Shown: piece after piece, positions 2,743 through 21,350 of the stretch
Layout of the letters: each line of letters opens with the position of its first letter
Numbering within the stretch: position 1 is the stretch's first letter
Assembly: GCA_945877405.1 (NCBI GenBank)
Contig: CAMCSA010000001.1
Span: 1-64,000 of the forward strand
Origin: an uncultured Erysipelotrichaceae bacterium
GTDB taxonomy: Bacteria > Bacillota_I > Bacilli_A > Erysipelotrichales > Erysipelotrichaceae
Direction of reading: 5' to 3'
Length of the DNA stretch: 64,000 bases
Translations under genes and position numbers: made by a program
The notes under the pieces: generated by a model
What the model saw: only the letters and a program-made list of their open reading frames with translations
Told to the model about the DNA's origin: nothing
Database searches by the model: none

Positions 2743-2748
2743 CAGTGA

Positions 2749-3543
2749 TTACTCCTGATCTCTCTTCTTCAGTACAACTGCACCTGCAATTGCAACAACG
2801 ACTGCTGCACCTGCGAAGTAGAACATTGTGTTGTTTCTGACTGCTTCTACTGTGCCGTTAACTTCTGTATTTACGGATGGCTTTGTTACAGCTGTGCTGG
2901 CTTTAGCTGCTGGTACATATACTACAGCAACTGGAGAAAGGTCTTCGAATGTAGCTGTGATGGAGTCGTTAGCTGCATCTACTGCATCTGGAGCGATCAT
3001 TTCAAGAACATTTCTCTTTGTGGAGTAGTGCATAACGAATGCTTCACCACCGCTACTTACTGCTGCATTTAAGCCTGGAGCATTCAGAGTAGCTGTAATT
3101 GGGCCTTTAGGTTCTTCACCGTCTACAGTAATTGTCAAATCCTGGAATGGTGTCAGCATATTGACAGCGCTCATATCAACAATCTTGGAATTATCTGTAG
3201 TAGTAACAAATGTCTTACCATTGTCTTTCTTAACATTTTTTACTTCTGCACCACTTGTATTGATAACTTCATTAACTAAGTCATTAACCGTGATCTTTTC
3301 AGTTCCTTTACCAGAAACACTAGTAAGAGCAGAAACAACAGCTTTAGGTGTATCTGTGTTTTCAAAAGACAATTCCTGATCCAGTGTAGCTGTTACAGTA
3401 CCTGTAACAGGCTTACCATCAACCTTAATAGAGCTGTCGTCAACAATACCACCCTTTAATGGGCTTCCGTCTTCAGCGAATACTGGTGTTGCAAGAGCGA
3501 ATGCAAGACCACAGGCCATCAGACCCTTCATAAATTTGTTCAT
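2749..3543 (-). CDS. Secreted surface protein with C-terminal membrane anchor but no LPXTG
   Basis: About 264 aa. The ATG at 3543 is preferred over an ATG 18 bases upstream, because the ribosome site AGGGGG overlaps the latter. An N-terminal signal peptide (LMACGLAFALATPVFA) precedes a beta-rich ectodomain containing FEDLSPVAVVYVP, a phrase common in Bacillota surface proteins. The C-terminus is a single helix (FYFAGAAVVVAIAGAVVL) followed by KKRDQE. This is the hydrophobic-plus-charged end of a sortase substrate, yet no LPXTG-like pentapeptide precedes it; the region reads TEVNGTVEAVRNNT. It may simply stay membrane-anchored. First gene of the operon with cpsC and cpsD, so it may act in envelope polymer display. 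Function not recognised. Confidence 0.75.
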   Translation of the reverse strand: MNKFMKGLMACGLAFALATPVFAEDGSPLKGGIVDDSSIKVDGKPVTGTVTATLDQELSFENTDTPKAVVSALTSVSGKGTEKITVNDLVNEVINTSGAEVKNVKKDNGKTFVTTTDNSKIVDMSAVNMLTPFQDLTITVDGEEPKGPITATLNAPGLNAAVSSGGEAFVMHYSTKRNVLEMIAPDAVDAANDSITATFEDLSPVAVVYVPAAKASTAVTKPSVNTEVNGTVEAVRNNTMFYFAGAAVVVAIAGAVVLKKRDQE

Positions 3544-3589
3544 TGTGTTGTCCCCCTTCATAAATACCTTGGACGTATTATTTTATAAT

Positions 3590-3640
3590 TGTGTATTAGT
3601 ACACATCTATTAGTATAGATTCTCCTACCCTGAAAATCAA
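3590..3640 (-). promoter_or_regulatory. Promoter of the surface-protein/cpsC/cpsD operon with two tandem palindromes
   Basis: On the minus strand TTGATT (3640-3635), a 17-base spacer and TATACT (3617-3612) form a good sigma-A promoter. Two perfect 6-4-6 palindromes overlap it: atctat-tagt-atagat at 3605-3620 covers the -10 box, and tgtgta-ttag-tacaca at 3590-3605 covers the start point. Both contain TATTAGTA, and their centres are 15 bases apart. The arrangement looks like a double operator for a dimeric repressor; the regulator is not identified. Confidence 0.7.
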
Positions 3641-3714
3641 GAAATTATACAAAATTACATACCTGTTACAGGAAAGAAAATCTTACCCATTGAAACAAAG
3701 TTAATAGTATTTAA

Positions 3715-4650
3715 TTAATCGTAGTACAGATCAACGATCAGTTGAGGAAGTTTCTCTTCATCTACATTAAACTGTGTACGGAAACTGCCCTGTACCACTT
3801 CACCTGGCAACTGATATATATCATCAAATGTATAATCGATCACCATATCGAGAATATCTGATATTTCTGTCAGTTCAACATTTGTATATACGCGATCAGC
3901 AACATCAGATACACGATCCAAAGCCTTATCAAAATCACTGGTGATTAATGTCTTCAATGCATCCAGATAAGTATTCAGATATTCCTTCTGCCTCTCCATA
4001 CGGATTTCATTAGAACCGGAAATATCGGTATTTCTATGTCTGATGAATTCTTCTACATTAGATGCATCTACAGTGACAATACTTCCTTTTGTCCATTCCG
4101 GATTGACTTCTGCAAGCAGGTCATCTTTGACTTCTACCTGCATTGGACCGACAACATCCTGGATCAATGAAAGATCATCAAGTGCAATTGTCATGTAGTA
4201 TGTAATTGGAATGTTATGCAACAGTCTGCTGACAGCATCCTTTGTATACAGTGTTGACTGCTTAGTGCTTGTACCATACGCATATGATAAAGCAAGATAG
4301 CTCTTATCCCAGCCAAGGAAGTTATGTTCCAGGTCATAAATCTTGATATCAACATAAGCACTTCGATCAAGCTGCAAAATACGATACTGGCTGTTTTCAC
4401 GATCAAAACTGAGTAACAGAACAAAGTCAGACTGACCACCCTCTCCATCTCTTGTATCAACGCCTGTAATCAGGAAATTCATCAGATGGGAGTTATAGCT
4501 GTATTCCTTACCATCCACTGTATATGTATGGTAATCCTCATCTTCCCGCAAGGAAGAAGTCTGGCCGTCATTTGTTTTGATTCTGTTTGGTGTGCATGCG
4601 CATAATGTAAGGCATGTTGCTGCAGAAAGAAGCATTTTCAATAATTTCAT
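3715..4650 (-). CDS. LytR-CpsA-Psr (LCP) family lipoprotein
   Basis: A 311-aa protein. The N-terminus is a lipoprotein signal (MLLSAATCLTLCAC) with the modified cysteine near residue 19. The LCP domain follows: LITGVDTRDG near 60, SDFVLLLSFDRENSQYRILQ, then LDRSAYVDI with an arginine at the lipid-phosphate site, and RHRNTDISGSNEIRMERQ near 205 with the second conserved arginine cluster. LCP enzymes transfer glycan polymers from undecaprenyl carriers to peptidoglycan. Most LCP proteins are anchored by a transmembrane helix; a lipoprotein form is less usual. It has its own promoter and precedes the Wzz/kinase operon, fitting a role in attaching a surface glycan. AGGAGAG is the ribosome site. 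Confidence 0.8.
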   Translation of the reverse strand: MKLLKMLLSAATCLTLCACTPNRIKTNDGQTSSLREDEDYHTYTVDGKEYSYNSHLMNFLITGVDTRDGEGGQSDFVLLLSFDRENSQYRILQLDRSAYVDIKIYDLEHNFLGWDKSYLALSYAYGTSTKQSTLYTKDAVSRLLHNIPITYYMTIALDDLSLIQDVVGPMQVEVKDDLLAEVNPEWTKGSIVTVDASNVEEFIRHRNTDISGSNEIRMERQKEYLNTYLDALKTLITSDFDKALDRVSDVADRVYTNVELTEISDILDMVIDYTFDDIYQLPGEVVQGSFRTQFNVDEEKLPQLIVDLYYD

Positions 4651-4933: not shown

Positions 4934-5531
4934 CGTTCATATATAATTTCTGATTTTTACCCTTTTCCAGTTCCTTGTTACGGATGGTATGAGCAGGACA
5001 GCTTGCAGTTGGCGTTGAAACGATCACGCTTCCTTTTCGATAGCTATATACGGTATACCATGGCACTTCTCCAAACCTGTATCTGTTCCGTAAGCCTCGC
5101 TTGATGTTTTCTGAGATGGAATGACTTTCTTCCTGTGCAAAAAACCCGCAAAGATTGTAAGCAGAAACTCTGATCCAAAACAGGATGTATCAATGCCTTC
5201 CTTTTCAAAATATACCGATACTTCCATATCCGTTAATTCCCTTGTATACCGCAGAGAATCTGCCGTATTTCTGGCAAATCTGGATACGGATTTGACCAGA
5301 ATCATGTCAATTCCATGATTCCTTGCTGCTTCCATCATCTTCTAAAAGGCAGGTCTGTTTTCACTCTGTGTACCAGTTAACCCTTCATCCGCAAAGATAT
5401 CGACTAACTTCCAGTCAGGATGACTGGCAATGATACGCTGAAACGATTCCATCTGCAGATCAAGGCTTTGCTACTGTACTTCTTGATCCGTTGATACTCT
5501 GCAGTATGCTGCTGCTTTCTTATTGATCATA
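4929..5531 (-). pseudogene. Serine recombinase remnant (second of a tandem pair)
   Basis: From an ATG at 5531 the frame reads INKKAAAYCRVSTDQEVQ, a stop, SLDLQMESFQRIIASHPDWK, VDIFADEGLTGTQSENRPAF, a stop, then KMMEAARNHGIDMILVKSVS, RFARNTADSL and SEFLLTIFAGF. These are the resolvase catalytic-domain motifs with the YCRVST serine intact. An extra base in a T run shifts the frame, after which it continues FAQEESHSISENIKRGLRNR, the linker helix of large serine recombinases, and stops near 4929. The recombinase domain and zinc ribbon are missing. Two nonsense mutations, one frameshift and the truncation make it inactive. Confidence 0.85.
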
Positions 5532-5582
5532 GAAGGATGTTCTTGATCAGACTGTAATGCCTTTCTGATGATACGCACGTTT

Positions 5583-6547
5583 TCATTGAGAGTGGATTGT
5601 TCGCTTACAGTTCCACACATACCGGTATTCCTCTTCCCAGCAGCAGCTGTGCCTGTTCAAAGTCACTTCGGCTGGATGATGATCCTGTAGATACTGCTGT
5701 TCTTTTTCTCCTTCGTTTTTCTTTCGTACATGATTGAGATAATCCACGGTATAGGATTTACGCGTCAATTGATCCCCTGCATAGGCTTCATTTGTCAGCA
5801 TTCCCATGACATTCCGTTTCGTCCACTTTCTTGTCACACCATGGATTTCCTCATATGCATTCATCTTTTCCGCAATGGCAGAACATGATTTCCAGCCAGA
5901 ATCAGTTCAAATACCATACGAACTCGATCTGCCTCATCCTCTTTGATATGCCATTGATAAATCCCATCGGTTGCTTCCCCTTCCCGTACATAGCCATAGA
6001 CAGCTGCTCGGATCGGATCCCCTTTTCTGTTACGATAGACCTGTGCCAGTGTAATATTCATAGAAGTGCTGTTGGACTCCTCTTGTGAAATGATGGCCAG
6101 AATCGATAACAGCAGATCAATGTTCTTTTCACTTGTATTCAGATTCTCTTTTTCAAAACATACCGGAATCCCAAGCTGATTGAGTTCTCTGACATATTCA
6201 ATACACTCTGCATAGTTTCTGGCAAACCGGGATACTGATCTGGTATGGATTTCATCCACCTTCCCTTTCCTGCAGTCATTCATCATCTTCAGAAATCCGG
6301 GTCTTTTACATGCCAGTCTGCCGGAGATTCCTTCATCCCCATAAATACCGATCAGCTCACAGTCTTCCCTGTTTTCAAATAATGCCTGATAATACCGCTT
6401 CTGCGCCTTACAGTAAAGATCCTGTTCCTCCTGCAGTGTTGATACACGACAATACGCCGCAATCCGTTTTTTCTTCACTCCTGAATCATAATGATCTGTT
6501 TTTGGATGCCTTATTCCTTCATGATGTACAGTTCTGATCTTTTCCAT
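5583..6547 (-). pseudogene. Large serine recombinase, frameshifted (first of a tandem pair)
   Basis: The start at 6547 follows GGAGGTG. The frame encodes the resolvase domain (RIAAYCRVSTLQEEQ, YGDEGISGR, RSVSRFARN, ILAIISQEES) and the beginning of the recombinase domain (YGYVREGE). It breaks near 5862; a second frame continues MNAYEEIHGVTRKWTKRNVM, MLTNEAYAGD and DHHPAE. A further shift leads to FEQAQLLLG, after which the C-terminal zinc ribbon and coiled coil are absent. Tandem pairs of such recombinases are the mobility module of many Bacillota elements. Both members here are dead, and no attachment sites could be recognised. Confidence 0.85.
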
Positions 6548-6645
6548 GCACACCTCCATTCCTGTCTGTACAATGATCAGGTAAAAACAATTGTATCGTG
6601 TTACGGGAAATCAGTAACATAGAGCCATCCATGATTGCACAGAAT

Positions 6646-6692
6646 AATCCCGGTATCAATGCATGCATCATGCACACATCCATACCGGGATT
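6646..6692. repeat. Long-stem inverted repeat between the recombinase remnant and the S8 gene
   Basis: aatcccggtat (6646-6656) and ataccgggatt (6682-6692) are perfect 11-base complements around a 25-base loop that is itself rich in gcatgca. It lies just after the S8 lipoprotein gene and could form a strong hairpin in its transcript, but no T run follows on the minus strand. A weak terminator or a protein-binding site are both possible. Confidence 0.55.
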
Positions 6693-6710
6693 TATTCATT
6701 TTATAATCGT

Positions 6711-7352
6711 TTACTTCTGTACTTCCTGCCTGGTGTGATACTTGCCTGAAGCAAACATGCCAGCCACCTTTGCACAGGCAACAGAAGTACCCTGTGCCTG
6801 TTTCCATGATCCATCAACAAACAGATCAACGCCAGTTACCATGCTGTAGGAAGCAGGATTACCATCACTGTCAAGTGCTCCAACACTGATCACTTCTTCA
6901 TAGCCTGCAGGAAACAGGGTATCTTTACGGTTTCCAACATTCCCCGCCGCAGCTACCATGACAATTCCTTTATCATCTGCACGTTGTATGACATCATGCA
7001 GTTCTTCACTTTCCATGATGGAAAATGCCATGCATATGATATCGACATCATATGTATCCATGCAGTCCTGGATTGCTTCAATCACATAGTCATTGACTCT
7101 TCGATCTTCACAACTGACTTTAAGAGGAACCAGTGAACAGTCTGGTGCAGCAGATAAGATGATTTCCGCAAGCATGCTGCCATGGCCTTTGTCATCCGTC
7201 GTATCCGTTGTGCCATCGATATAGTTATAACCAGTGATCACATTTCCATTGACTTCAGAAATACCGGAATCCAGTATCGCAACACGCATGGATTTTTTAT
7301 GACAGGCAGATAGACACAGGAGTGAAAACACACATACAAGAAGTTTTTTCAT
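6711..7352 (-). CDS. Compact subtilisin-like (S8) lipoprotein protease
   Basis: A 213-aa protein. A lipoprotein signal (LLVCVFSLLCLSAC) is followed at once by a subtilase fold: RVAILDSGI holds the catalytic aspartate near residue 28, DKGHGS the histidine near 58, AAAGN the oxyanion asparagine near 137, and GTSVACAKVAG the serine near 191. All catalytic residues are present. The domain is about 190 residues, well under the usual 260-300, and there is no I9-type propeptide. The protein should sit on the outer face of the membrane. It is the last gene of a four-gene operon and starts in an ATGA overlap with the gene before it. Processing or shedding of the giant proteins is a plausible job, by inference only. 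Confidence 0.85.
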   Translation of the reverse strand: MKKLLVCVFSLLCLSACHKKSMRVAILDSGISEVNGNVITGYNYIDGTTDTTDDKGHGSMLAEIILSAAPDCSLVPLKVSCEDRRVNDYVIEAIQDCMDTYDVDIICMAFSIMESEELHDVIQRADDKGIVMVAAAGNVGNRKDTLFPAGYEEVISVGALDSDGNPASYSMVTGVDLFVDGSWKQAQGTSVACAKVAGMFASGKYHTRQEVQK

Positions 7353-7780
7353 TGTTGCAGCAGATCTGTTTCCACCTGAATGGATTCAACGATTTCTTCC
7401 CCTTCATAACAGTCATAGCTGACCGTTACGGCTGTTTCATCTTCCCTGAATACACGTGAGAAGGTAATCGAAGAAGCCGAAGTACCAGGCTGCATCCTAT
7501 CACTCTGATAGAGGATCTTTCCAGATTCATCCATCATGGTAATCATCAGATCATAGCTGTTATCTGATGGATTAAGGATCAGCACATCCTGTTTCCTTTC
7601 CCCTTTGACGATGGAAATCTCATCCAGAATGGAGAGTACAATACTGTTTTCCACGACTGGTGAAGGCGGATCAGACCGGTTCATTAATGTAACCACACCT
7701 ATGACAGCTCCACCAGTCACAACACCAGCACCAACAAGCCAAGGCACTGCCGTTTTTGGAATCTTTATCTTGAAATCCAT
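7349..7780 (-). CDS. Small single-pass membrane protein of the giant-protein operon
   Basis: A 143-aa protein, family not recognised. A short basic N-terminus (MDFKIKIPK) is followed by one transmembrane helix (VPWLVGAGVVTGGAVIGVVT) near residues 12-31, then an outside domain of about 110 residues predicted to be beta-rich (DVLILNPSDNSYDLMITMMD; SITFSRVFREDETAVTVSY). The N-in orientation puts the domain outside. GGGAGAG lies before the start. It overlaps the 2629-aa gene by 16 bases and the S8 lipoprotein gene by 4, implying coupled synthesis. It could be the membrane tether or partner for the giant proteins, which lack anchors of their own; this is inference. Confidence 0.75.
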   Translation of the reverse strand: MDFKIKIPKTAVPWLVGAGVVTGGAVIGVVTLMNRSDPPSPVVENSIVLSILDEISIVKGERKQDVLILNPSDNSYDLMITMMDESGKILYQSDRMQPGTSASSITFSRVFREDETAVTVSYDCYEGEEIVESIQVETDLLQQ

Positions 7781-10700
7781 ACGTGCTCTCCCTTCTGTTT
7801 TTCATATGTCCATGTACCACCTGCTGATATCGTACCACTCTGCTGTCCATATGTAACGGATAAAGGAACAGAAGAAGTAATGGTACTGGAATCACCATCC
7901 GGGCTGATTGTAATCAGATATTGTGTACATACGGTAAACTCAGATGGAATGGATGGGGCATATACATCATTGCCTGCATACCTTGCCTGCACAACATATT
8001 CTTTTCCTGGTAATAATCCACTCACCTTTGTTCCCTGTAACCACTGTCCACCATTGACTCTGATCTGTACGTTACCTGCTTCACTATCTGTCATACCAAG
8101 TACTTCAATGACATCGTCTGTCGCAATGGCTGTAATCGATGGTGTTTCGACTGTCTTACGATCCAGTTGTGTGAGAATCTTCATGCTTTGCGCGGCATGA
8201 TGGTTGATACATGCTTCATCTGGAATGAAGGATGCATAGATGGATGTACCATCCAGCTTCATACCAGCAAGATCAATCTCACACTGACCATTGACAAGTG
8301 TCTTTCCACCGATCTTTGTTTCATCTTTGTACAGTTCGACTTTACCGGTTAATGGACGCAGATCCACACCCGTTACAGTCACACTGACTTTCAGCAGATC
8401 ATCTGCACTCAGATGCAATACCTTCATGAAATCATTCCATATACTGTCTTTCTTTAGTACAGCCACATCAATATTCGGATGGGCTTTTGTAATGGTAATG
8501 TTTTCCGTATCATTGGAAGTAATCACATAGTTGCGATTACCGCTTTCTGCTTTGACTTCATAGCTGCCAACATTCACAAGTCTTTCCTCACTGCGTAATA
8601 CTGCATTTACAGGATTACCGGAAACATCCGAATAGACAGCCTGCAGAGAATCCAGCTGATCAAAGCCTGTATAAGTAAGGGTCTGTGGACTGTTCCATGT
8701 CACAGATACGGATAATGGATGAATGACATACGGGAAGGATGTATCCGGGAATACATAATTTCTGTTGGATAAACCAGTTACAACAGCTGTATATGTTCCT
8801 GCTTCCACACCCTTATGGCCATCCAGCATGACTTCACAACGATCCCCTTCTTCCAGGTTGACAACCTGTGCGGTAATACCGGCTGTATTGCCATCGTATG
8901 TCTTTTCAGCCTTACCATCGATTCTGATCTTTGCCTGCTTTGGATTTACAGTCACTGTTTTTGAGCATGCTGTTGCGTTGTAATCCTCATCCTCATCCTT
9001 ATATGCTGTAATGACTGCTGTACCTGCAGAAACAATGACAGCCTGGTTATCTTCAATCCGGATGATGGATGGATCTGAACTGCTGTAATGCACTGCACCA
9101 TTTCCACTGCCACCACCTGTTTTCAGACGTAATGGATCATCACCATATACACATGTATCTACAACACCCAACTGCAGTGCATCCTGGGTTGCCTTAAGGT
9201 TTGCTGTTAACAGAATATCCGCAACAGCTGATGCCAGATACAGATCATTTTCCCTGTATCGGATTCGAATCGTACCCTTTGATAAGCCCTCAATGGTGTT
9301 GCCAATAACAGGATTCCATGTCTTTCCTCCATCCATACTGTATTCCATCGATTCATCCGTTCCATGAATGGAGCCGTCTTTGGAAACGGTAGAAGAAGGA
9401 TGTACAACAACAAGGTTCTGTGGCTGCGTGCGGTCTGCCTTATTGACTGACAGCACTGCCGTTACCTTCTGTGACTGATATGTTTCACTTTCAGGTGTCG
9501 TCATTGTAATCTGGAATGTACCAGCCTTACTTACGGTTAATAATGAGCCGGACAATGTACCCTCCCCACTTCCACCTGTGATTTTCCAGGATGGGTTACC
9601 GATGATTTCACCAGAGAATAAAGTACTGATATCAATCGGGGAACCATCGTAAGTCTGACTGCGATCTTCTCCAACCATCTGCGTTGTCAATTTTCTGACA
9701 ACAATAGTCATGGTTGCACGCAGATCATCCGTATTACGCATTTCTTTACCGTTCTGCAGAATACCATAAATTGTACAAGGACCGACCATCATGGAATGAT
9801 AGGCACCCTTATACCATGTAACCGGTACATCAGCCATGGATCCATCCCGCAGGTTTACAGTAACCTTTTCAGGTAATGGCATATCTTCAAATGCTGTACC
9901 AAGTGTTACAACAAAATCATCCACAGGCACAACAGAAACAATGTCGTTTCTGACTGTAAAGGTGAACTGTTGCTGCAAGGATACTTCTTTGACTTCTCCA
10001 TCATCATTCGTATAGCTGCCCTGTGCTGTAATGACAGCTGTAACAGCTTCGCCCATCTTCTGTTTTAATACGATGCTTTCATTTTCCATTGCCAGATACG
10101 GGTTATCTGAAATGGACCACTGAACAGAAAGACTGTCTGGTGCATGGGATACAGATGCATGTACAACTTGTGTACCAGGTTGTGCATCGGCAGAAATAAC
10201 CGTATCACTGACCTGAATTTCAGAAGGTGTAATCGAAGAATTCTGCACATTGACAACAAGCGTATTTTCCAGAACATAGCTGTCCGTCAGAGGATAGGAT
10301 GCACTTAATACAGCCTCTCCTTTGATTTTACCAGTCAGTACATGGTCATTTACCTGCACACTGCCACTGCCTGTCAGTATCTGTTCACTGATATTGTCTG
10401 AGCGTAACAGAATTGTTTTACCATTTGCCATCAGACAATAGTAGCTTAACTGCACTTCCTGACCGGTATACAGTGTCAGACTCTGATCGGTTGAAGATAT
10501 GATGTTGCCATTTGCCGCAATCAGCAGATCGGTTATGCCTGAAAATTCAGAAGGCATGACAGTTGCGCTCAGTTGCGTTTCATTGCCAGCCATATCCACT
10601 CCGATGACTGTAAGCGTTTCTACTGTTTCATTACCGTTACCATGATAGCTGAATGTTGCATTTTCTATCGGTACCTCCTGCCCATTGATATAAATACGAG

Positions 10701-13700
10701 TATTGGCCTCGGCTGTACCGGAAACCGTATAGGCTCCATCATATGAGAATACAACACTGTCAGATAACATCACTTCTGGTGGAGTTACATCACATTCAAC
10801 CGTAATGGTGTTTTCCGTATAGTCACCAGCACCATTGATCGCAATCACTTCAATGTTACTGCCACCTTCCGGTATGGTCAGATTATGTACTGTTGTACCA
10901 TTTTCTTCCAGTGTATATTCCTGAATGTTACCTGCTTCATCTGTGATATAAGCATCATCCAGTTTCATCAGATATGAAATGCTCTGATCCGATGTCATCT
11001 GCAGCAAGATTTCTTCACTGCTGACCTGTGTAGTGAATGAACCTTCCATCATCGTATCCTGACTGTTGTCTGCATTACTGTCCGTTCGCACAGAACAAGC
11101 CGGGTATTTTCCATTCACCGTATAACTCAGTTTTGCCGGGTTGCTTACTGGAAGCTCTTTTGCATCTGATATCAGTGGATCACTGTAATAATCCGTTCCA
11201 TTAACAGTTTTATATGCCGTTACAACAGCCTTATATTTCCTGCCTGGAATGACACCTTTTGTTACTGGTTCGTCTTCTGCAACTCTTTCACCCTGCTCGT
11301 TTTTGACAAAGCTGCCATCCGGATTCTTCTGATACTGAACCTCCTGATACACATAACCGAAATCAACTGTCGTTTCCGTGACTGCCATTCCGGATACACC
11401 ATCAATCTCATTCCCGTTTTCATCCGTCAACGTGACAAAGTAACCATCTGCACCTGCTACCGGATTCCAACAGATACGGAACTGTCCATCTCCACATGGT
11501 AAAACAGACAGATTTGTTACAGCAGAAGGTGTATTCGGATTGACCCATGTAAATACGGTATCTGTTAATGCAGAGGTCACCGCATTACCACTTTCATCAT
11601 TGACGACAAGCCGTACTGCATATGTACCACTTGCCAGTGTATCCGGTAAGGATACGGAAATGGAATCCGTCTTTTCATCTACGGATATGGATGCATCCGT
11701 AATCCTGAAGCCTGCCGGTTCAGCTGACATCATCTGAGCATAGTATTCGTTCCGCTGATCTTCTGATAAAACAGAAAGATCTTCTTCATCCAGTGTTACC
11801 GCATCATTGATTTCCTGCTGATTGACAAGATATACATCCACACTTGCACCATCACTCATATTCTGCAAGTTGCAGTCTGTTGTCAGCGTATGACCGTTCA
11901 GCTGTGGTGTACCTGCTGTAATGGATGAAGTTTCCTTTACTTCATGGGCAATCACATCCGCATCAATGTCATACTGGATCTTCCATGTACCATTCTGAGG
12001 TGATACTAAACCGATACCAAGCCAGTGCTCTTCCTTACCGCTTTGAGATTCATCTGCACCGATTGTCTGAATGATGCAGTTGTCATCTTTCTTCAGCTGA
12101 ATCTTATTACCGCTTGGATCAATGATTCTGATGTGATTCAGTACATTTTCACAGTCTTCATACTGTACCTGAATCAAAGAATAGTCGTTATCTTTGATTG
12201 TAACTTCTTCTACATTCCACTTTCCCTGAGTACCGGATGTTGTTTCCAGTGTCGTCATATTATCACCTAGCAACATGACACCACTGACATTTCCATCTCC
12301 AGTATCATAGGTAACCGATAATGCATTTTCAATGTCACCCTGCGGAATGGAGAATTCTTCTTCCAGATATTCCCAGTCATCAAAGAACTTCACTTTTCGA
12401 TCTGTCCAATAATAGCTGACAGATACCGGAATACCGATGACTCTGATACCGGTATAGACGCGATATGTGGAAAGCTCAGCCATGACAGCCATCACTTCCT
12501 TACCACCTACAAGCGGAACATATTTTGGAATGTAAATACCGGCATATGCCTTACCACCTAAGGAAAGATTACCGAAAATCGTATCCAGTCTTGGATCAGC
12601 AACAAACCAGAATCCGGCTTCTCCTCGAATGATACCAAGAATATTGATCTTGGATTCATAACCAAGGTCGACACATGGATAAACAGTACCATCTTCCATC
12701 TTTGTGCCATACAGCTTCAGATGGGCACCAACTTCCTCAAAGATCTTCAGTCCGATGATCTTGGCTTCTGCAGCTGTAAAGGAAATACCCTGTCCACCAA
12801 CCGACATGTCAATTTCATCCACCGTGAAGGTATACATCGTCGGGTCCGCATAGCCTGTATAAACAGACAACGTTGTCGGCGGGAAGATATTGAAATTGGA
12901 TTTGATCGTATCGTACAGTCCGGATACCCCACCACCGATTCTTGTCAGAAATCCTGCAACGGATAATGGAATCTTTACGACATCACCAGATGCAACAAAC
13001 TTCAGGCTGTCAGGATAGATCTTACCCGTATCTTCCTTGACTAAAGCAAGTTCCATTTCACATTCAAAGGCATCTCCAACCTTGACCTGTGCGCCTACCC
13101 CGATATACCAGCCATCATAATCAATGGAATTGATTTCAAAATTTGCACCAGCTCCACCGCTTGTAAACTTCGGTAAGGAATCATCGGTCAGATTGATGCC
13201 ACCTTCTGCCTTGACACCTTCCAGCTGTGCCGTAAGATCATCTTCATTGACACCATAGCGCATTTCTTCCAAATTCAAGGAAAGCAGATCATCTGTCTTC
13301 TTTCCTTCACCGACTGTGCTGTTAAGGTCATCACGCTTGGAATATTTTTCTTCTAATGGGGATGGCGTTTCATCACTATCATCACCTCCATTGGAAGCAT
13401 TGGACCACCAAGGCAGGGATACGGAAATGCTGCCACCAAGTGAAATTGTTTCTTCGCCGATGACCGCATTGGATACGCTGACCTGCATACCGGTCAGAGC
13501 ACCGACTGTTTTTGTCAGCTGTGTTCCGACTACACCTGCCGGTGTGATGATTTCCACATCTTCCGTTTCCTGATAATCATCCTTGATTTCACCAGAACCG
13601 ATATTGTCATTGAGATCTTCATTGTTGGAATCATCATCTTTACCACGTAATTCATAAATACACTCATCATTGAGGGCAATATAGAAATCACCCTGGTGGA

Positions 13701-15654
13701 ACTGATAATCTCCGACAAAAAGACTTCCATTACCACTCAGAATGAGCCCTGAATGGATATTGCCATACCACTTGTATCCGCTGAAAGCATCCCGGAACTG
13801 ATCCTGCAAAGATTCCACATGATCGTTGTAACGGGTAACTGTAATCACAGCATTTTGATTGAAATGATTCCGATACAGAATGGCGGAATTGATGGTTGCA
13901 CCATTTGCGATCGTATAGCTGATATGATCATTGAGTTCATATTCACCAATCGTACCACGGATTGTCAAAAGTGTTTCGAAGTCTTCCGGAATGGAGTCCT
14001 CTTCACTTTCCCCCACAGCAACATCATAAATCCAGTCACCATCTTCGTTTTTCGTACGACCGACATACATGACGCCATATTCTTTTGCTTCGTAGCGACG
14101 ATCATCACTCATCTCAAGTACAACATGCATGGAACCATACTGTTCACTCTGCAGGATAAGCTGATGGGAATGTGCTTTGTACGCAAAGTCTGCATTCGAT
14201 GGTAATGTCACTGTCAAAGTCGCATCATCCACAATGGTGATATCCCCTTTGGAAATGGATGTACTGTCACCGGTAACTTCATCCACAAGTTTCATTTCCC
14301 ATTGGTTATCACCCTTAAGGATTTCCATGCCTGTACCACGGATTGTCACCTTTTTATTCACGCTACCTGTATACAGTGTGGAAGGAGCAACCTCACTGAA
14401 GGATACCTGAGGCAATGCACCACTCTGTGCAGGTAAGATGATATATTTCAATCCTTCACTCAGAATGTCTTCATGGCTAACCTGAATACCTGCCTGTTCG
14501 ACGGATGTCTTTTCAACAATCGATGGATGGACATAGAATGTCACATCCTTTGTATCACCGGCAGAAATATCAACATACATTTCATCCTGCTGATCGATGA
14601 CACTTAGGTTTTCAGAAACACCAAGTTTCACAAGTACATCCTGTAATGTGTTCTCCGTATGATTTGTAATGGAAACCATGATTTCAAACGGATCATATCC
14701 AACCGCATAGCCGTCTCTTTCTTCATTGAGTGCAACTTTCTGCGGAGCACTAATCTGAATGGAAAGATCATCTGATCCTACCACATCAGAAATACTGCCG
14801 ATGCCATAATATGTCTCATAGGTGACCGTACCACCAGCATGTAAGGATTCCGGGTTATAGTACAGTGCTACTGCACTGTCTGCTCTGCCATATTCATTCT
14901 GATCCGTTGTAAAGTTCAGTAATGGATTGACTTCACATTCCCACTTTGTTTCCGCAAGGGTGTTATAGTGGGCAACGGTCATCTGATCCGGTTTTCTGCT
15001 GCCTTCCCAGCCATACAGGACACCACGTGAGCTGACATTGGCTGCCATCTTGCGGTCCATGGACTGCCAGACCATCGGAACATCATTTCCCATCAGTTCC
15101 TTTTCGTTTGTAATGTATTCTCTTCCAGCCAGTAATAAGGAACCATCGTTGGCACCAAGCATCGTATCGATGAGAATTCTTGATCCAAGAGATACTTCTG
15201 CGCCAGATCCATTGGATACTTCATAGCGGATACGGACATTGCCGACTTCCGGATCAGAAAAATCCGTAACAAGCTTTAATGTCTGTGTAACCTGTACCCC
15301 ATTGACCTGCCATACTGTAATAGCTGTGGAACCGGAAAGAACTGTAGAAGATACAATACCACCTTCATCTATATAATCATTACCAAAGATGTAATCTTCA
15401 CCATTGATCCTAAAAGTTGTAAAGGCTGTTTCCGGCACCTGATTGAAGAAAGTCAGGAAGGAATAGCGGTCTGTTGTTTTGGATGGCATACCATCCTGTG
15501 TCGATACCGCAAATCTTCCGGTTGTTTCACTGACATCCACCTGGATGATCGTATTACCTAAGGTCAGCGTTGCGTCTTCCTGTTTTGCCTGTACAGGTAA
15601 TACCTGCAGCATCACAACAAAGCTTAATAGAAACGCTGTCAGTTTCTTCCTCAT
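7765..15654 (-). CDS. Giant secreted multi-domain protein, 2629 aa
   Basis: A signal peptide (AFLLSFVVMLQVLPVQA) opens the protein. Regions by rough residue number: 25-420 beta-rich with conserved-looking PEVGNVRIRYEVSNGSGAEV; 420-520 an IPT/TIG-like fold (VSFSEVAPSTLYTGSVNKKV); 760-1160 an unfamiliar glycine- and aromatic-rich region (GLYDTIKSNFNIFPPTTLSV; FGNLSLGGKAYAGIYIPKYV); about 1390-1530 a fibronectin type III-like domain (FRICWNPVAGADGYFVTL); about 1600-1700 an Ig-like domain (VSGTAEANTRIYINGQEV). From about 1950 come YDG/MBG-type repeats (TYDGSPIDIS, TYDGNTAGITAQVV, LTYTGFDQLD). The C-terminus ends EKQKGEHVWISR, with no LPXTG, membrane helix, SLH or choline-binding repeat. AGGAGG precedes the ATG, which overlaps the previous gene by ATGA. 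Likely an adhesin or matrix protein. Confidence 0.85.
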   Translation of the reverse strand: MRKKLTAFLLSFVVMLQVLPVQAKQEDATLTLGNTIIQVDVSETTGRFAVSTQDGMPSKTTDRYSFLTFFNQVPETAFTTFRINGEDYIFGNDYIDEGGIVSSTVLSGSTAITVWQVNGVQVTQTLKLVTDFSDPEVGNVRIRYEVSNGSGAEVSLGSRILIDTMLGANDGSLLLAGREYITNEKELMGNDVPMVWQSMDRKMAANVSSRGVLYGWEGSRKPDQMTVAHYNTLAETKWECEVNPLLNFTTDQNEYGRADSAVALYYNPESLHAGGTVTYETYYGIGSISDVVGSDDLSIQISAPQKVALNEERDGYAVGYDPFEIMVSITNHTENTLQDVLVKLGVSENLSVIDQQDEMYVDISAGDTKDVTFYVHPSIVEKTSVEQAGIQVSHEDILSEGLKYIILPAQSGALPQVSFSEVAPSTLYTGSVNKKVTIRGTGMEILKGDNQWEMKLVDEVTGDSTSISKGDITIVDDATLTVTLPSNADFAYKAHSHQLILQSEQYGSMHVVLEMSDDRRYEAKEYGVMYVGRTKNEDGDWIYDVAVGESEEDSIPEDFETLLTIRGTIGEYELNDHISYTIANGATINSAILYRNHFNQNAVITVTRYNDHVESLQDQFRDAFSGYKWYGNIHSGLILSGNGSLFVGDYQFHQGDFYIALNDECIYELRGKDDDSNNEDLNDNIGSGEIKDDYQETEDVEIITPAGVVGTQLTKTVGALTGMQVSVSNAVIGEETISLGGSISVSLPWWSNASNGGDDSDETPSPLEEKYSKRDDLNSTVGEGKKTDDLLSLNLEEMRYGVNEDDLTAQLEGVKAEGGINLTDDSLPKFTSGGAGANFEINSIDYDGWYIGVGAQVKVGDAFECEMELALVKEDTGKIYPDSLKFVASGDVVKIPLSVAGFLTRIGGGVSGLYDTIKSNFNIFPPTTLSVYTGYADPTMYTFTVDEIDMSVGGQGISFTAAEAKIIGLKIFEEVGAHLKLYGTKMEDGTVYPCVDLGYESKINILGIIRGEAGFWFVADPRLDTIFGNLSLGGKAYAGIYIPKYVPLVGGKEVMAVMAELSTYRVYTGIRVIGIPVSVSYYWTDRKVKFFDDWEYLEEEFSIPQGDIENALSVTYDTGDGNVSGVMLLGDNMTTLETTSGTQGKWNVEEVTIKDNDYSLIQVQYEDCENVLNHIRIIDPSGNKIQLKKDDNCIIQTIGADESQSGKEEHWLGIGLVSPQNGTWKIQYDIDADVIAHEVKETSSITAGTPQLNGHTLTTDCNLQNMSDGASVDVYLVNQQEINDAVTLDEEDLSVLSEDQRNEYYAQMMSAEPAGFRITDASISVDEKTDSISVSLPDTLASGTYAVRLVVNDESGNAVTSALTDTVFTWVNPNTPSAVTNLSVLPCGDGQFRICWNPVAGADGYFVTLTDENGNEIDGVSGMAVTETTVDFGYVYQEVQYQKNPDGSFVKNEQGERVAEDEPVTKGVIPGRKYKAVVTAYKTVNGTDYYSDPLISDAKELPVSNPAKLSYTVNGKYPACSVRTDSNADNSQDTMMEGSFTTQVSSEEILLQMTSDQSISYLMKLDDAYITDEAGNIQEYTLEENGTTVHNLTIPEGGSNIEVIAINGAGDYTENTITVECDVTPPEVMLSDSVVFSYDGAYTVSGTAEANTRIYINGQEVPIENATFSYHGNGNETVETLTVIGVDMAGNETQLSATVMPSEFSGITDLLIAANGNIISSTDQSLTLYTGQEVQLSYYCLMANGKTILLRSDNISEQILTGSGSVQVNDHVLTGKIKGEAVLSASYPLTDSYVLENTLVVNVQNSSITPSEIQVSDTVISADAQPGTQVVHASVSHAPDSLSVQWSISDNPYLAMENESIVLKQKMGEAVTAVITAQGSYTNDDGEVKEVSLQQQFTFTVRNDIVSVVPVDDFVVTLGTAFEDMPLPEKVTVNLRDGSMADVPVTWYKGAYHSMMVGPCTIYGILQNGKEMRNTDDLRATMTIVVRKLTTQMVGEDRSQTYDGSPIDISTLFSGEIIGNPSWKITGGSGEGTLSGSLLTVSKAGTFQITMTTPESETYQSQKVTAVLSVNKADRTQPQNLVVVHPSSTVSKDGSIHGTDESMEYSMDGGKTWNPVIGNTIEGLSKGTIRIRYRENDLYLASAVADILLTANLKATQDALQLGVVDTCVYGDDPLRLKTGGGSGNGAVHYSSSDPSIIRIEDNQAVIVSAGTAVITAYKDEDEDYNATACSKTVTVNPKQAKIRIDGKAEKTYDGNTAGITAQVVNLEEGDRCEVMLDGHKGVEAGTYTAVVTGLSNRNYVFPDTSFPYVIHPLSVSVTWNSPQTLTYTGFDQLDSLQAVYSDVSGNPVNAVLRSEERLVNVGSYEVKAESGNRNYVITSNDTENITITKAHPNIDVAVLKKDSIWNDFMKVLHLSADDLLKVSVTVTGVDLRPLTGKVELYKDETKIGGKTLVNGQCEIDLAGMKLDGTSIYASFIPDEACINHHAAQSMKILTQLDRKTVETPSITAIATDDVIEVLGMTDSEAGNVQIRVNGGQWLQGTKVSGLLPGKEYVVQARYAGNDVYAPSIPSEFTVCTQYLITISPDGDSSTITSSVPLSVTYGQQSGTISAGGTWTYEKQKGEHVWISR

Positions 15655-18600
15655 CTTCCTTCCTCCTTTCCTGCATAAATTTCAAGTAAGACTGTCTGCC
15701 TCTCCTGATCACGGATCAGCATCGTATAATAGCCTGGTGTTTCAAATCGATAGCTTCCATCCAGAATTTCCTTACTGTAATCTTCTGTTACCAGTTTGAA
15801 ATCACCCTTTGGATGTTTTCCTTTGAGAATCTGAATGACCATGTTTTCATTGAATCCGGTTGTAACAAACGTATTACCGGACTGTTTCATATCGACACGA
15901 TGATCTGTAACAAGCACGCCATTTATGATCTGATGTGGTTGCTTTGGATCATAGACGGTTACCTGACGGGTTGTGGTTGTTTCATTGCCGGCAACATCCT
16001 TTGCATGATATGTGATTTCATAGATGCCTGGTGTATGAACATCGATATGATGCGCAACGGTCAATCCATCCGGATCCTTGTTTTCATCTTCCACGATGAC
16101 TCCTTCCAGCAGGTCGATTTCTTCATCGAGTGGGATTGCTGTGGTTGTCTCAGGTAATGTAATAGATGGAGCTGTGACATCAATCAGATCGGTTGTAAAG
16201 GTAACTTTGGTCTGATTGCCGGTTGTATCCTGAACCGTAAAGCTGATCGGCTCATTCTTTTCCAATACGTATGAAGCATGTTGAGTATCAGTTACTTCGA
16301 TCATTTCAGGCCATACAACATCTTCATCTGCCTCAAACATGACTTTTAAAGGCTGATTTAACAATGTATCCCGATCTGTTGTGATGCTGATTTCTGCAGC
16401 CTTTCGATCAATCCAGTCGACCTTTGCTTCGATTGTACCGATCTGTTCTCCCTTACCATCGGTATACTGATAGGTGAATGTGCCGTTTTCTTCAAACACA
16501 TGATATGCTGCACCATTATTATTGAGAATGACAATCTGTTCATCCCCAACTGCCTTCAGCTGAGCACTTACAGATGTGCTGATCGGATCCATTGTGGAAT
16601 AGACGACTTCCACTTCCGGCAGCTCAGTTGTAATCCAATCGACTTCAGCTTTCTGTTCAGTCGTATTACCGGCACGGTCCGTTGCCTTGAATACAAAGGT
16701 ACCATTCTCCTTGAATTCGTAGGTTGAAATACCATCTTCCCATTCTACTGTTTCATTGGCAAAGACAAGTGCAAATACATGGAATGGTGTTTTGCCTGTA
16801 TGTTCTGGCGTATACTGAATACTGATTTTTGGAGCAGTCTTATCAATCCATCTGCATGTATATGCATACTGACTCCTGTTGCCAGCACGATCATACAGTT
16901 CAAAAACATGCTCGCCATTTTCTTCAAATACATACACCAGATCATCTGCACCACTCTGTTGGTCGTAAGCGTGCAATGTAACGGTAACATTCTGATTGGT
17001 CCATGTATCATGATCTGCAGTCAGTATACCTGTTGGGGCAACAAGATCAATATGATCCACGGATACGGTAATGGAACCTTCCGTTCCAGCCTTGTTTCTG
17101 TAATGGAATGTATGAGAACCATTGGTATTGAATACATGACTGTAATCTTCTTCCATTGGAGAAAGAGAATCACGGAAGGAAAGCTTTGCTGTGACAGGCT
17201 GATTTGTCCAGTATGTATTCATGTCCTGCACAACACCATCCACTGTATATGTAACAAAAGGTACAATCTCATTCTTGTCAATGTTCGTTACTTCCACATG
17301 ATAACTGCCGATATTACCTGCTTCATCACGGAAGTAGAACATATATTCGCCATTTTCAGTAAATACATGCTGATCTCCATCTGGATCCACTTCATAGATT
17401 TCTTCATCTTCATGGATGATCTTTTTCAGATATGTAATATTGGAGGAATGATCATCCTTGGCGGCTATGCGAACCGCTACATCCTGATTTGTCCACTCTT
17501 TTGTGGAAAAGGATACATCATCTTTCGTACATGTCGGTACAACCGTATCAATACGGACTTCTGACTGTTGCGTTTCCAGTGTGTCCGATGCTTCATCATA
17601 CAGGTCATATTCCAGAACGCCCCATGTTTTGACGTGATATGTATGGTTCTGCGCATCGATGACTTCAATCTCATCACTGTTTTCACTGACATCCTTTTCA
17701 TTAAACCGCACTGCCTGGATTGTCTGTCCACCAATCGGTTCAATGATGACTTTCAGATCATGATTTACAGTAACAGAGCCATCGATTTCATGATCTTCAA
17801 GATCTTTGAAGATGACTTTTGTAGAAGTGATGGAATGATCAATCCATGTCACTTCAGCCATGAATTCACCTTCATTCCCTGCTTCATCCACAAATCGGAA
17901 CAGCTGTTTTCCATTATCCTGAAACAGGTATGACTGGTCCTTGACTTCCGGTTCAATGACAGTTACAGCCGATTCATCTTCAAATGTCCATCTGGCTTTG
18001 ACATACATACCTGTACGGGTAGATGGAGAATATGTCATATGCATGATTGGCGCTGTACAGTCAAGCTTTACCTTCAGTGACTGTGGTCTGGATCTGTTTC
18101 CAAGATCATCTTCACTGCATACTTCTACTGTATAAATGCCATCCATGTTTTCCAGTGTAAATGAGTTATCTGTTGTAGAAATCCATTCCATGGTTTCATT
18201 CCAGCGGTACAGATACTGCGCAAAATCATCTGACTGGCATTCCATTGTAAATGCTGCTGACTGGTGTGCTTTCTGATCTGCCTGTAAACTGGAAAGCGTA
18301 AAGGATGGTGCCTGATGATCAATGCAGTTGACTTCAGCCTGCATTTCAGACCTGTTACCGGCTTCATCAACACAGATGAACGTATGGCTTCCATTTTCTT
18401 CAAATACATGTTCCTGTTCCGTTACCCATGTACCTTCATTGCTTGTGGCAGTTACGGTAACCGGATCGGCTGTTCGCTCCGTTGTACTATAGGACAGACT
18501 GATGACAGGTGCTGTGATATCATAGATGATTTCAGCCTGCATGACTTCACTGACATTTCCAGCGACATCGCGGAATTTTGCTTCGATGTGATGTTTTCCT

Positions 18601-21215
18601 TCCACTGCTTCAAACTGGAACAGATAGGTATAGGCATAAGGCATCCAATCGGACCATTCTCCCTCTTCTTCTCTAATCTGCATTTCCATCCGTTCTGCAC
18701 GGATAAAATCATCCTGAACTTCATTTCTGATCACAACTGATGTGTCATTGGAATATCCGTTTCCATCATGTCGGATTGTTCCCTTTGGTGCTTCAATATC
18801 CTTACGGAATGGTTTTGATACTGCAGTTATGATGTTTCCACATCCATCCACAGCACGCACATGTACATACTGATCTCCTTCTTCGATTGAAACAGGAATG
18901 ATCAGAGAAGTTGGATCTTCCACTGTAATCATTTCCTCACTCACTTCAGGAGTATCACTGATCGCATATTCCACCTGTAAAAAGGAAGTTACTGTATTAT
19001 CATCTTCAATGACAACATGCACATCAAACCCAATATCCCCTGGCATTTCCGCATTTCCATCCGGTGTAAAACTCACCTCAGGTGCGGTATTGTCAATCTG
19101 ACATACCGTAGAGGCAGTTGCCTGATTCATCGCCGCATCACTTACACGTACTTCCAGTGTCCAATTACCATTTTCATTTTCCGGTGTTTCGATCAGATTC
19201 GTATCCGTTAATGTCATCCATGGCACATCTTCATCTGCCTGCTGAATCCATCTGTATTCCTTCTTTTCTACTGCAGTATGCTCATCTTCACTGATCAGCT
19301 GTACAACATGCTTTTTTGCATATCCATATGTATCACATGTCAAAGATACTTCCGGTGCATCCTGGTCTACAAGGATTTCTGTTTCCTGCGTTGCGAAATG
19401 ACCATGAGAATCTTCAGCACGCACTGTCAATGTATACTTCCCGGAAACAATTGGAAAAGGAACAGGTCCGTTTTCTTCCAGTTTGCCTGTCAAACTTTCT
19501 TTTCCTGTTTCTGCATCCTTCCATGTGTACGTAACATTCGGGTATGTTTCATCCTTGTCTGTGACAGTGACATCTGCACTGATATTATCCCCTTCAAACT
19601 TTGTGGAAGAGATCATGATTTCCGGTGCATTCAGATCAAAGTCAAACGGGTTTTCAATGGTGTATGGCTCACTGGTATTCCCTGTACGATCGGTACCGAT
19701 CACACTCAGATACCATTGTCCTTCTTCTTCCGGTACACCAGTCACAAAGACATCTTTGACTTCTTTTGCGTCCATCCACTCTGCAGGAAGTACAGATGCA
19801 TCCTTATGGAAACCATACTGAACATAAGAAACACCACATCCATCATCTTCAAGCTTCAGCTCTACCGTTCTGTTTTCATCATAGATGACTGCCTGATCTG
19901 ACCAGGATGATACATATGGTGCAGTCGTATCAATCCGCACACCAAAATCATCCATATATCCGATCCATTTTCCGATTGCTTCATTCAATCGGGTTGAATC
20001 CTCTGCAGACTGTCCCGCTTCATCCACGATACCCCGCAGGTTAAAGGAAGAAATACCCACAGCATCCACATCCATACCTTCACTGACATGGCTGATGAAA
20101 TCAGCTGTAGCTGTTGTTGTATCATCCGGTACATATACTGCAGTGGCACCATTTGAAAGTGTGATGGATGGACTTCCATTCACTTTGATGTTTTCATGGA
20201 AAGTCAGATGGAATACCATCTGATCTCCTGTCTTCAATACGGAATCTTTGGAAAAACCTTCCGAAGTAACCGATACAAGTTCCGGTGGTCTGTTATCCAT
20301 CCAGATTCTGCCGTTTTTTCCGACAAGCGAATTCAGATTGGAAATATCATCTTCACTCATTGATTTTGTTACTGAATTGGAGGCGCCATCTTTGAATGTA
20401 AAGGAAGATGTACCAAGTAAGGAAATTCTGTAATGATCCGATATGACTTCTCCGTTAGATGGAATGGTATATACGGCCTGTACAACACCTTTACCACTTA
20501 CATTATCAAAGGAATACTGAACAGCCTGATCCGAAACAGGTGAAAAAGTAAACTGTGGAATCGTATTCAAAGTTACATGTTCAGAAAACTGCATGGTATA
20601 TGTAATCTTTGTTCCAGCAGCATGATTTTCACTCAGCTGATTGCCATCATCTGTGGTTGCAGAAATAAAGGTAACAGATGGTCTGACAACATCTTTGATG
20701 GAAAGATTACAGTTTTCCGTTTCCAGAGCGCCTTTTGTACCGATATGGTTATAGACATAATAACGGATGTAGGCTGTATCCTTTGGAATGGTTTTATCAT
20801 TTACCGAAAGCGTATTCCAATGATGCTTTACTTTGTAGCTTTCACTTTTATGAGTCCACGACTGAATTGCCTTACCTGAACTGTTGTAGCATGTTACAGT
20901 CAGTTCTCTTGTATTGGTTCTAGATCCATTGGCACCAACACGTACAGAAGCACTCAGACGCAACTCTCCCTGATCACAACGTACTCTTGCGGCAGCATCG
21001 AGATAAATCAGCTGCGTCGTTGTCTGTGTCTTTTCTGAACTGGAATAATTGGAAAATGTCAGAAGATTCCTGTTATAGGAATTTTCATTCATTGTGATAT
21101 TACTGCCAAGCCGATCTGTGGCATGGACTTCCGTCAATGTAAAACATAATACAGACGCCATCCCGATCAGAAATGCCATTATCATCTTACCTGTATATCT
21201 TCCGGACTTTCTCAT
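15651..21215 (-). CDS. Giant secreted Ig-like repeat protein, about 1854 aa
   Basis: The ATG at 21215 is preferred: GAGG lies 5 bases before it, and an in-frame ATG at 21230 lacks a ribosome site. A signal peptide (MIMAFLIGMASVLCFTLTEVHA) precedes a lectin-like N-terminal region (LSASVRVGANGSRTNTRELT). A long run of Ig-like domains follows. At least seven share a signature HVFxENGxxxFxxxDxAGN then WID (for example HVFEENGSHTFICVDEAGN and YEFKENGTFVFKATDRAGN). Near the C-terminus is a DUF5011/HYR-type domain (TPGIYEITYHAKDVAGNETT). No cell-wall anchor is seen. First gene of the four-gene operon; its stop overlaps the start of the 2629-aa gene. No convincing promoter was found in the 135 bases upstream. 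Confidence 0.85.
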   Translation of the reverse strand: MRKSGRYTGKMIMAFLIGMASVLCFTLTEVHATDRLGSNITMNENSYNRNLLTFSNYSSSEKTQTTTQLIYLDAAARVRCDQGELRLSASVRVGANGSRTNTRELTVTCYNSSGKAIQSWTHKSESYKVKHHWNTLSVNDKTIPKDTAYIRYYVYNHIGTKGALETENCNLSIKDVVRPSVTFISATTDDGNQLSENHAAGTKITYTMQFSEHVTLNTIPQFTFSPVSDQAVQYSFDNVSGKGVVQAVYTIPSNGEVISDHYRISLLGTSSFTFKDGASNSVTKSMSEDDISNLNSLVGKNGRIWMDNRPPELVSVTSEGFSKDSVLKTGDQMVFHLTFHENIKVNGSPSITLSNGATAVYVPDDTTTATADFISHVSEGMDVDAVGISSFNLRGIVDEAGQSAEDSTRLNEAIGKWIGYMDDFGVRIDTTAPYVSSWSDQAVIYDENRTVELKLEDDGCGVSYVQYGFHKDASVLPAEWMDAKEVKDVFVTGVPEEEGQWYLSVIGTDRTGNTSEPYTIENPFDFDLNAPEIMISSTKFEGDNISADVTVTDKDETYPNVTYTWKDAETGKESLTGKLEENGPVPFPIVSGKYTLTVRAEDSHGHFATQETEILVDQDAPEVSLTCDTYGYAKKHVVQLISEDEHTAVEKKEYRWIQQADEDVPWMTLTDTNLIETPENENGNWTLEVRVSDAAMNQATASTVCQIDNTAPEVSFTPDGNAEMPGDIGFDVHVVIEDDNTVTSFLQVEYAISDTPEVSEEMITVEDPTSLIIPVSIEEGDQYVHVRAVDGCGNIITAVSKPFRKDIEAPKGTIRHDGNGYSNDTSVVIRNEVQDDFIRAERMEMQIREEEGEWSDWMPYAYTYLFQFEAVEGKHHIEAKFRDVAGNVSEVMQAEIIYDITAPVISLSYSTTERTADPVTVTATSNEGTWVTEQEHVFEENGSHTFICVDEAGNRSEMQAEVNCIDHQAPSFTLSSLQADQKAHQSAAFTMECQSDDFAQYLYRWNETMEWISTTDNSFTLENMDGIYTVEVCSEDDLGNRSRPQSLKVKLDCTAPIMHMTYSPSTRTGMYVKARWTFEDESAVTVIEPEVKDQSYLFQDNGKQLFRFVDEAGNEGEFMAEVTWIDHSITSTKVIFKDLEDHEIDGSVTVNHDLKVIIEPIGGQTIQAVRFNEKDVSENSDEIEVIDAQNHTYHVKTWGVLEYDLYDEASDTLETQQSEVRIDTVVPTCTKDDVSFSTKEWTNQDVAVRIAAKDDHSSNITYLKKIIHEDEEIYEVDPDGDQHVFTENGEYMFYFRDEAGNIGSYHVEVTNIDKNEIVPFVTYTVDGVVQDMNTYWTNQPVTAKLSFRDSLSPMEEDYSHVFNTNGSHTFHYRNKAGTEGSITVSVDHIDLVAPTGILTADHDTWTNQNVTVTLHAYDQQSGADDLVYVFEENGEHVFELYDRAGNRSQYAYTCRWIDKTAPKISIQYTPEHTGKTPFHVFALVFANETVEWEDGISTYEFKENGTFVFKATDRAGNTTEQKAEVDWITTELPEVEVVYSTMDPISTSVSAQLKAVGDEQIVILNNNGAAYHVFEENGTFTYQYTDGKGEQIGTIEAKVDWIDRKAAEISITTDRDTLLNQPLKVMFEADEDVVWPEMIEVTDTQHASYVLEKNEPISFTVQDTTGNQTKVTFTTDLIDVTAPSITLPETTTAIPLDEEIDLLEGVIVEDENKDPDGLTVAHHIDVHTPGIYEITYHAKDVAGNETTTTRQVTVYDPKQPHQIINGVLVTDHRVDMKQSGNTFVTTGFNENMVIQILKGKHPKGDFKLVTEDYSKEILDGSYRFETPGYYTMLIRDQERQTVLLEIYAGKEEGR

Positions 21216-21312
21216 ACGTACCTCACTCATCGCATGTGGAATTCAATCATAGTCTAACATGAATAAAACGTGCGGAATGTGCCGGGGAACGAGTCGATGT
21301 TTTACAGGAATG

Positions 21313-21343
21313 AAAAAAGCAGAAGTGAATGACTCACCTCTGC
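21313..21343 (-). terminator. leuS terminator
   Basis: Minus strand gcagaggtga and ttcacttctgc pair (21343-21334 with 21329-21319), followed by TTTTTT. It lies 8 bases past the leuS stop. Confidence 0.85.
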
Positions 21344-21350
21344 CTGTATG

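Follow-up and report, generated by a model that had tools for sequence, protein, structure and literature searches.

A four-gene operon for a putative surface assembly of two giant secreted proteins, a membrane-tethered partner and a subtilisin-like lipoprotein in an uncultured Erysipelotrichaceae bacterium

In the WxL clusters of Lactobacillales and Enterococcus, large secreted surface proteins are paired with a membrane-anchored protein of immunoglobulin (Ig) fold (PMC10599100, PMC1534035), and this protein, WxLIP (DUF916-DUF3324), has been proposed to bind and stabilize the secreted ones (PMC10599100). In Treponema denticola, the dentilisin operon prcB-prcA-prtP includes a subtilisin-like lipoprotein, PrtP, that is required for cleavage of PrcA (PMC8167434). 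Here we describe a locus that recalls both, found in a window of 64,000 nucleotides (the whole stretch of DNA that was analyzed, contig CAMCSA010000001.1, positions 1 to 64,000) from an uncultured Erysipelotrichaceae bacterium. Of its four minus-strand open reading frames (ORFs), P0004 and P0003 encode giant secreted proteins, P0002 a small protein tethered to the membrane, and P0001 a subtilisin-like lipoprotein of peptidase family S8. The explanation we prefer, and hold tentatively, is that this is an accessory surface-complex operon in which P0002 would hold or stabilize in trans the two giants, which have no anchor, and P0001, the lipoprotein protease, would trim or release them.

The likeness to WxL clusters lies in secreted surface proteins that are clustered with a membrane-anchored Ig-fold protein, as the giants are with P0002. 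The differences begin with the giants, which carry no WxL domain by Pfam; W-x-L motifs are absent from P0003, and the two in P0004 are scattered and not C-terminal. P0002 and its relatives lack DUF916 and DUF3324 (Pfam), the transmembrane (TM) segment of P0002 is N-terminal whereas that of WxLIP is C-terminal, and the operon adds an S8 lipoprotein. With dentilisin the locus shares a single operon for a small anchored partner, surface protein(s) and a subtilisin-like lipoprotein, but P0001 scores only 13 bits against the PrtP-type subtilase model (NF033595; cutoff, 300), has neither a prodomain nor a C-terminal extension, and stands with giants and a TM protein, whereas the partners in dentilisin are lipoproteins. 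Two other S8 families have the same core: QhpE (NF049966), of similar length, gives P0001 its best NCBIfam score (82.4 bits; cutoff, 165), and the mycosins (TIGR03921, type VII) give 70.1 bits (cutoff, 278.75). P0001 differs from both in being a lipoprotein and in belonging to an unrelated operon. By analogy, the operon may work most like a WxL/WxLIP cluster combined with a dentilisin-type protease, even though by sequence it qualifies as neither. An original prediction from the sequence of this stretch had stated that no named system has such a composition; this holds for the exact combination, which matches neither of these two systems, and is too strong for the principle, for which WxLIP and dentilisin can serve as precedents.

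As a unit, the operon is well delimited, because an intrinsic terminator (21317-21345, minus strand) separates it from leuS upstream, a strong hairpin (6642-6697, minus strand; -36.2 kcal/mol, z = -6.3) lies just 3' of P0001, and the genes overlap tightly and have start signals. The hairpin is probably the 3' end of the operon transcript. Successive ORFs overlap by 4, 16 and 4 nt, within the 4 to 16 bases originally predicted. P0004 (15651-21230, minus strand) spans 1,859 amino acids from an ATG at 21230 or 1,854 from an ATG at 21215, of which the second is preferred, with a Shine-Dalgarno (SD) sequence, GTGAGGT, 4-5 nt upstream. The strong SD of P0003 (7765-15654, minus strand; 2,629 amino acids), GGAGGAAGG, lies within the end of the P0004 gene, and P0002 (7349-7780, minus strand; 143 amino acids) has AAGGGAG. 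P0001 (6711-7352, minus strand; 213 amino acids) has only a distant GGTGG as SD and an ATGA stop-start overlap with P0002, which suggests translational coupling of the two genes. This layout points to cotranscription of all four genes, and we count the tight overlaps, the SD or stop-start coupling at every internal junction and the hairpins at both ends in favor of a functional unit.

Both giants have signal peptides, that of P0004 ending in VHA (followed by T) and that of P0003 in VQA (followed by K), and in each protein the signal peptide is also the most hydrophobic 19-mer. An LPxTG motif or LPxTG-TM-K/R tail, as used in sortase anchoring, was sought in both and is absent, as is any C-terminal hydrophobic stretch. 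P0004 begins with a beta-sandwich-like region followed by many Ig-like repeats, with Big_13, Bact_surface_Ig-like, Big_3_2 and Big_3_3 above Pfam cutoffs and OmpL47-type repeats above the NCBIfam cutoff. P0003 consists of an N-terminal beta region and then Ig/fn3-like repeats, with Big_4 above the Pfam cutoff and with fn3, MBG_2 and Glucodextran_B matches all below cutoff (Pfam, NCBIfam). The earlier description of secreted giants with adhesin-type domains and no anchor is borne out; of their designation as Ig/MBG proteins, the Ig-type domains reach cutoffs and the MBG domain of P0003 stays below threshold.

A search of 316 genomes of the order found relatives of P0004 in 9 others, with similarity confined to the repeats (E down to 1e-34). 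Most of these relatives stand alone, and every one ends in a TM segment of its own, unlike P0004, a difference that would agree with anchoring in trans. For the first 1,334 amino acids of P0003, the 295 order genomes searched gave a single weak match, to the N terminus of a 2,512-amino-acid protein (29%; genome G281), and the 395 genomes of the class gave nothing. Plasmids, phages and viral contigs also gave no match to this region, and a phage or plasmid origin of P0003 was rejected on that ground. Separately, one genome (G086; locus L165, 8836-17832) encodes two adjacent giant TM-anchored surface proteins of 1,447 and 1,501 amino acids, one of which shares the repeats of P0004; tether and protease are both missing there.

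P0002 has a single TM or signal-anchor segment at about residues 12-33 (7682-7747, minus strand), and because K3, K5 and K9 precede it, an N-in, C-out topology is expected. Residues 46-143 (7352-7645, minus strand) form an Ig-like all-beta ectodomain in the predicted structure (predicted local distance difference test [pLDDT], about 84-95), in line with the membrane-tethered ectodomain proposed for this gene. No Pfam or NCBIfam family matched the protein. Against a family profile built without it, however, P0002 scored 50.4 bits, versus 9.0 for the best of 1,000 shuffles, and by this sequence measure it is a true member of P2, an uncurated family of Bacillota. The possibility that P0002 is a frameshifted C-terminal anchor of P0003 was rejected, since it has its own SD and its P2 relatives are independent genes. 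A match of P0002 in genome G018 was likewise discarded as an antisense artifact within a LysR gene.

The ectodomain also raises the possibility that P0002 is a chaperone, tethered to the membrane, that helps the giants fold, or a platform on which they assemble, working by strand donation (which has been proposed for the DUF916 part of WxLIP) rather than as a final anchor, with P0001 clearing misfolded or stalled giants. An Ig-like fold would suit this role, Foldseek matches include the pilus chaperones FimC, DraB, CsuC, SafB and Caf1M (E, 0.008-0.04; TM-score, about 0.35-0.46), and P2 relatives sit before their secreted partners in operons. Those matches are weak and belong to generic Ig-like folds (E, 0.001-0.04, none below 0.001), the Ig fold is not specific to chaperones, and the giants lack the usual partner domain of the family, described below. 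We regard this explanation as quite unlikely.

When 295 genomes of the order were searched with a profile made from P0002 and three relatives (A2), 24 gave P2 matches, and further members occur in Listeria, on an Enterococcus mundtii plasmid (pLDW-8) and in viral contigs (IMG/VR). At 18 of the 24 P2 loci examined, the adjoining gene encodes a secreted protein with a shared beta domain, which is uncurated and which we named IPA from its Y-x-IPA...AG-x-Y pattern. These loci also served to iterate the IPA profile, and the clean test is therefore offered by loci left out of it: in held-out viral contigs, an IPA protein adjoined P2 at 4 of 4 loci (E, 1e-8 to 1e-12), and both P2 and IPA were absent from all 12 unrelated loci of the order used for comparison. 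The domain can make up a whole small protein or part of a larger one, for example as the C-terminal domain. It occurs in BspA-type leucine-rich repeat proteins of Listeria and Enterococcus and in a 1,938-amino-acid protein of genome G104, the gene for which overlaps P2 by 4 nt. In the members tested, P2 and IPA both lacked a matching model in Pfam and NCBIfam. On these sequence comparisons, P2 and IPA are a widespread two-gene module of Erysipelotrichales-type genomes, Listeria, Enterococcus and virus-like contigs, and the pair looks like an anchoring pair of the WxL type. Whatever becomes of our model for the operon, P0002 leads to this module, which is testable in laboratory species.

Three minor points concern the module and its records. 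Its loci in Bacillota, on a conjugative E. mundtii plasmid and in viral contigs are L067-L081, L093-L096 and L142-L146. Genome G113 (L071, 8063-9598) has two tandem P2 paralogues, each of about 253-256 amino acids compared with the usual 150-180. Listeria monocytogenes FDAARGOS_57 has a PLSDB entry called "plasmid unnamed" (NZ_CP030101.1; L094) that, at 2.9 Mb, is clearly the record of a chromosome.

P0001 matches PF00082 (Peptidase S8 / subtilase) with 76.5 bits (gathering score, 21.8; E = 2.8e-21), its catalytic residues D28, H57 and S190 and oxyanion N138 are intact, and its lipobox is LSAC17, all as anticipated for an outward-facing protease with a complete catalytic set. The protein begins directly at the first catalytic strand, with no propeptide, and ends 23 residues after Ser190 with no C-terminal extension. 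The calcium-A loop is absent as well, the H57-K78 stretch having the length of a calcium-loop deletion, and in the PDB the protein matches engineered BPN' variants of 266-272 residues best, at 59-63 bits, against about 45 bits for the 275-residue forms. Calcium-loop deletions of subtilisin allow folding without the propeptide. We infer that P0001 would fold without a propeptide or calcium site A and hence would be active on arrival. A predicted structure with a pLDDT of 53 was discarded. In its own right, P0001 is close in layout to the engineered BPN' deletion variants and is an apparent natural subtilase with neither calcium-A loop nor propeptide, which could serve as a natural test case for propeptide-free folding.

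Put together, these parts would give the following mechanism. In its host, an Erysipelotrichales-type member of the Bacillota, the operon would encode a cell-surface complex in which P0004 and P0003 are secreted with no anchor of their own. P0002 would bind one or both and hold or stabilize them on the membrane side of the wall, and P0001, presumably active on arrival, would clip a giant or P0002 and so mature or release the assembly. The neighborhood of the P2 family fits the role proposed for P0002, which is to serve secreted surface proteins as their partner at the membrane. The resemblance to the module extends to P2 relatives that adjoin small or very large secreted proteins; the operon departs from it in that its giants lack IPA and the P2 gene follows them and is itself followed by an S8 lipoprotein gene.

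Several results weigh against this mechanism. The usual order at P2 loci places P2 before its partner, the reverse of what is seen here. No IPA profile match was found in P0003 or P0004, and hhalign gave a probability below 1% for both C termini; with hidden Markov model and hhalign results both negative, a hidden IPA domain in the giants was rejected, and the binding target of P0002 is only putative. A scan of the organism's own genome, made without a positive control, detected no IPA elsewhere. P0002 itself is diverged, at about 15-24% identity to its P2 relatives, and two motifs of the family, IPG and the usual Cys-Tyr-Phe, have been lost from it. No cleavage site could be named in the products of the operon. 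The original prediction had proposed a search for the 143-amino-acid protein and the S8 lipoprotein as a conserved pair beside giant proteins; no such pair was found, and every P2 locus, held-out ones included, lacked an S8 gene. None of the other genomes searched carried the four genes together. Because there are no orthologues, cleavage and association are without comparative support. Of the predicted surface assembly with its own processing enzyme, what stands is the parts list, the topology and the company that P2 keeps elsewhere; co-occurrence in the other genomes searched does not.

One possibility, which we consider plausible though somewhat doubtful, is that the giants of this accessory surface operon bind glycan or a host or food matrix and that P0001, rather than processing them, degrades outside proteins or performs general surface quality control. 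Within the genus, the closest matches to P0001 are S8 domains within large multidomain surface proteins of about 1,150-2,050 amino acids, in which the subtilase itself serves as a surface enzyme. The P0004-repeat relatives that were checked carry the carbohydrate-binding domains NPCBM and F5/8C, and the missing S8 gene at P2 loci elsewhere also fits. Against this account, the protease has neither propeptide nor C-terminal extensions, and the stop-start coupling of its gene with that of the tether suggests that the two are made in step. No stand-alone orthologue of P0001 was found among 70 genomes of the genus, 60 relatives and 395 genomes of the class; a stand-alone S8 lipoprotein of 260 amino acids in genome G039 has a comF-like neighborhood, with P2 and giants absent there, and a scan of genome contigs with P0001 returned distant S8 domains only.

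A stronger version of the model we prefer would see in the operon a surface assembly of a new type. Giant adhesins with no anchor would be kept in place in trans by a small, tethered protein of Ig-like fold, and a lipoprotein subtilase of the same operon, constitutively active and lacking a propeptide, would release or mature them. We judge this joint claim unlikely. Should the preferred model hold, it would mean sortase-independent display and release of proteins of 200-280 kDa in a gut-type Firmicute, with the release enzyme built in.

Within the genomes searched, the operon is unique to one species, and it is, by comparison of gene order, an accessory insertion, because the genes that come after leuS in relatives are different ones, with scpA/scpB common among them. 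It was probably acquired. This setting can also be read as that of a decaying or recombined island, in which the giants have been stripped of C-terminal anchors, the tether is a diverged orphan and the protease was captured; recent insertion would then keep the genes together, and they would have yet to become a working unit or have ceased to be one. Occurrence in a single genome, the different genes after leuS in relatives, the conserved P2 residues lost from P0002 and recombinase remnants immediately downstream all lend themselves to this reading. We nevertheless consider it very unlikely, as all four ORFs are intact across 14.5 kb, their start signals and overlaps are good, the GC content of 0.41-0.44 matches that of the surroundings, and decay should have introduced stops into the ORFs of 1,859 and 2,629 codons, which are unbroken at lengths far beyond chance.

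The remnants directly downstream of the operon (5024-6559, minus strand) are fragments of two serine recombinases, with resolvase domains, stops and frameshifts, and are a possible trace of the insertion event. Beyond them lies the start of a capsule or exopolysaccharide locus (1331-4650, minus strand), which also encodes a secreted, TM-anchored 270-amino-acid protein without a Pfam family (2749-3561), along with LytR-CpsA-Psr (LCP), Wzz and Wze-like tyrosine kinase proteins.

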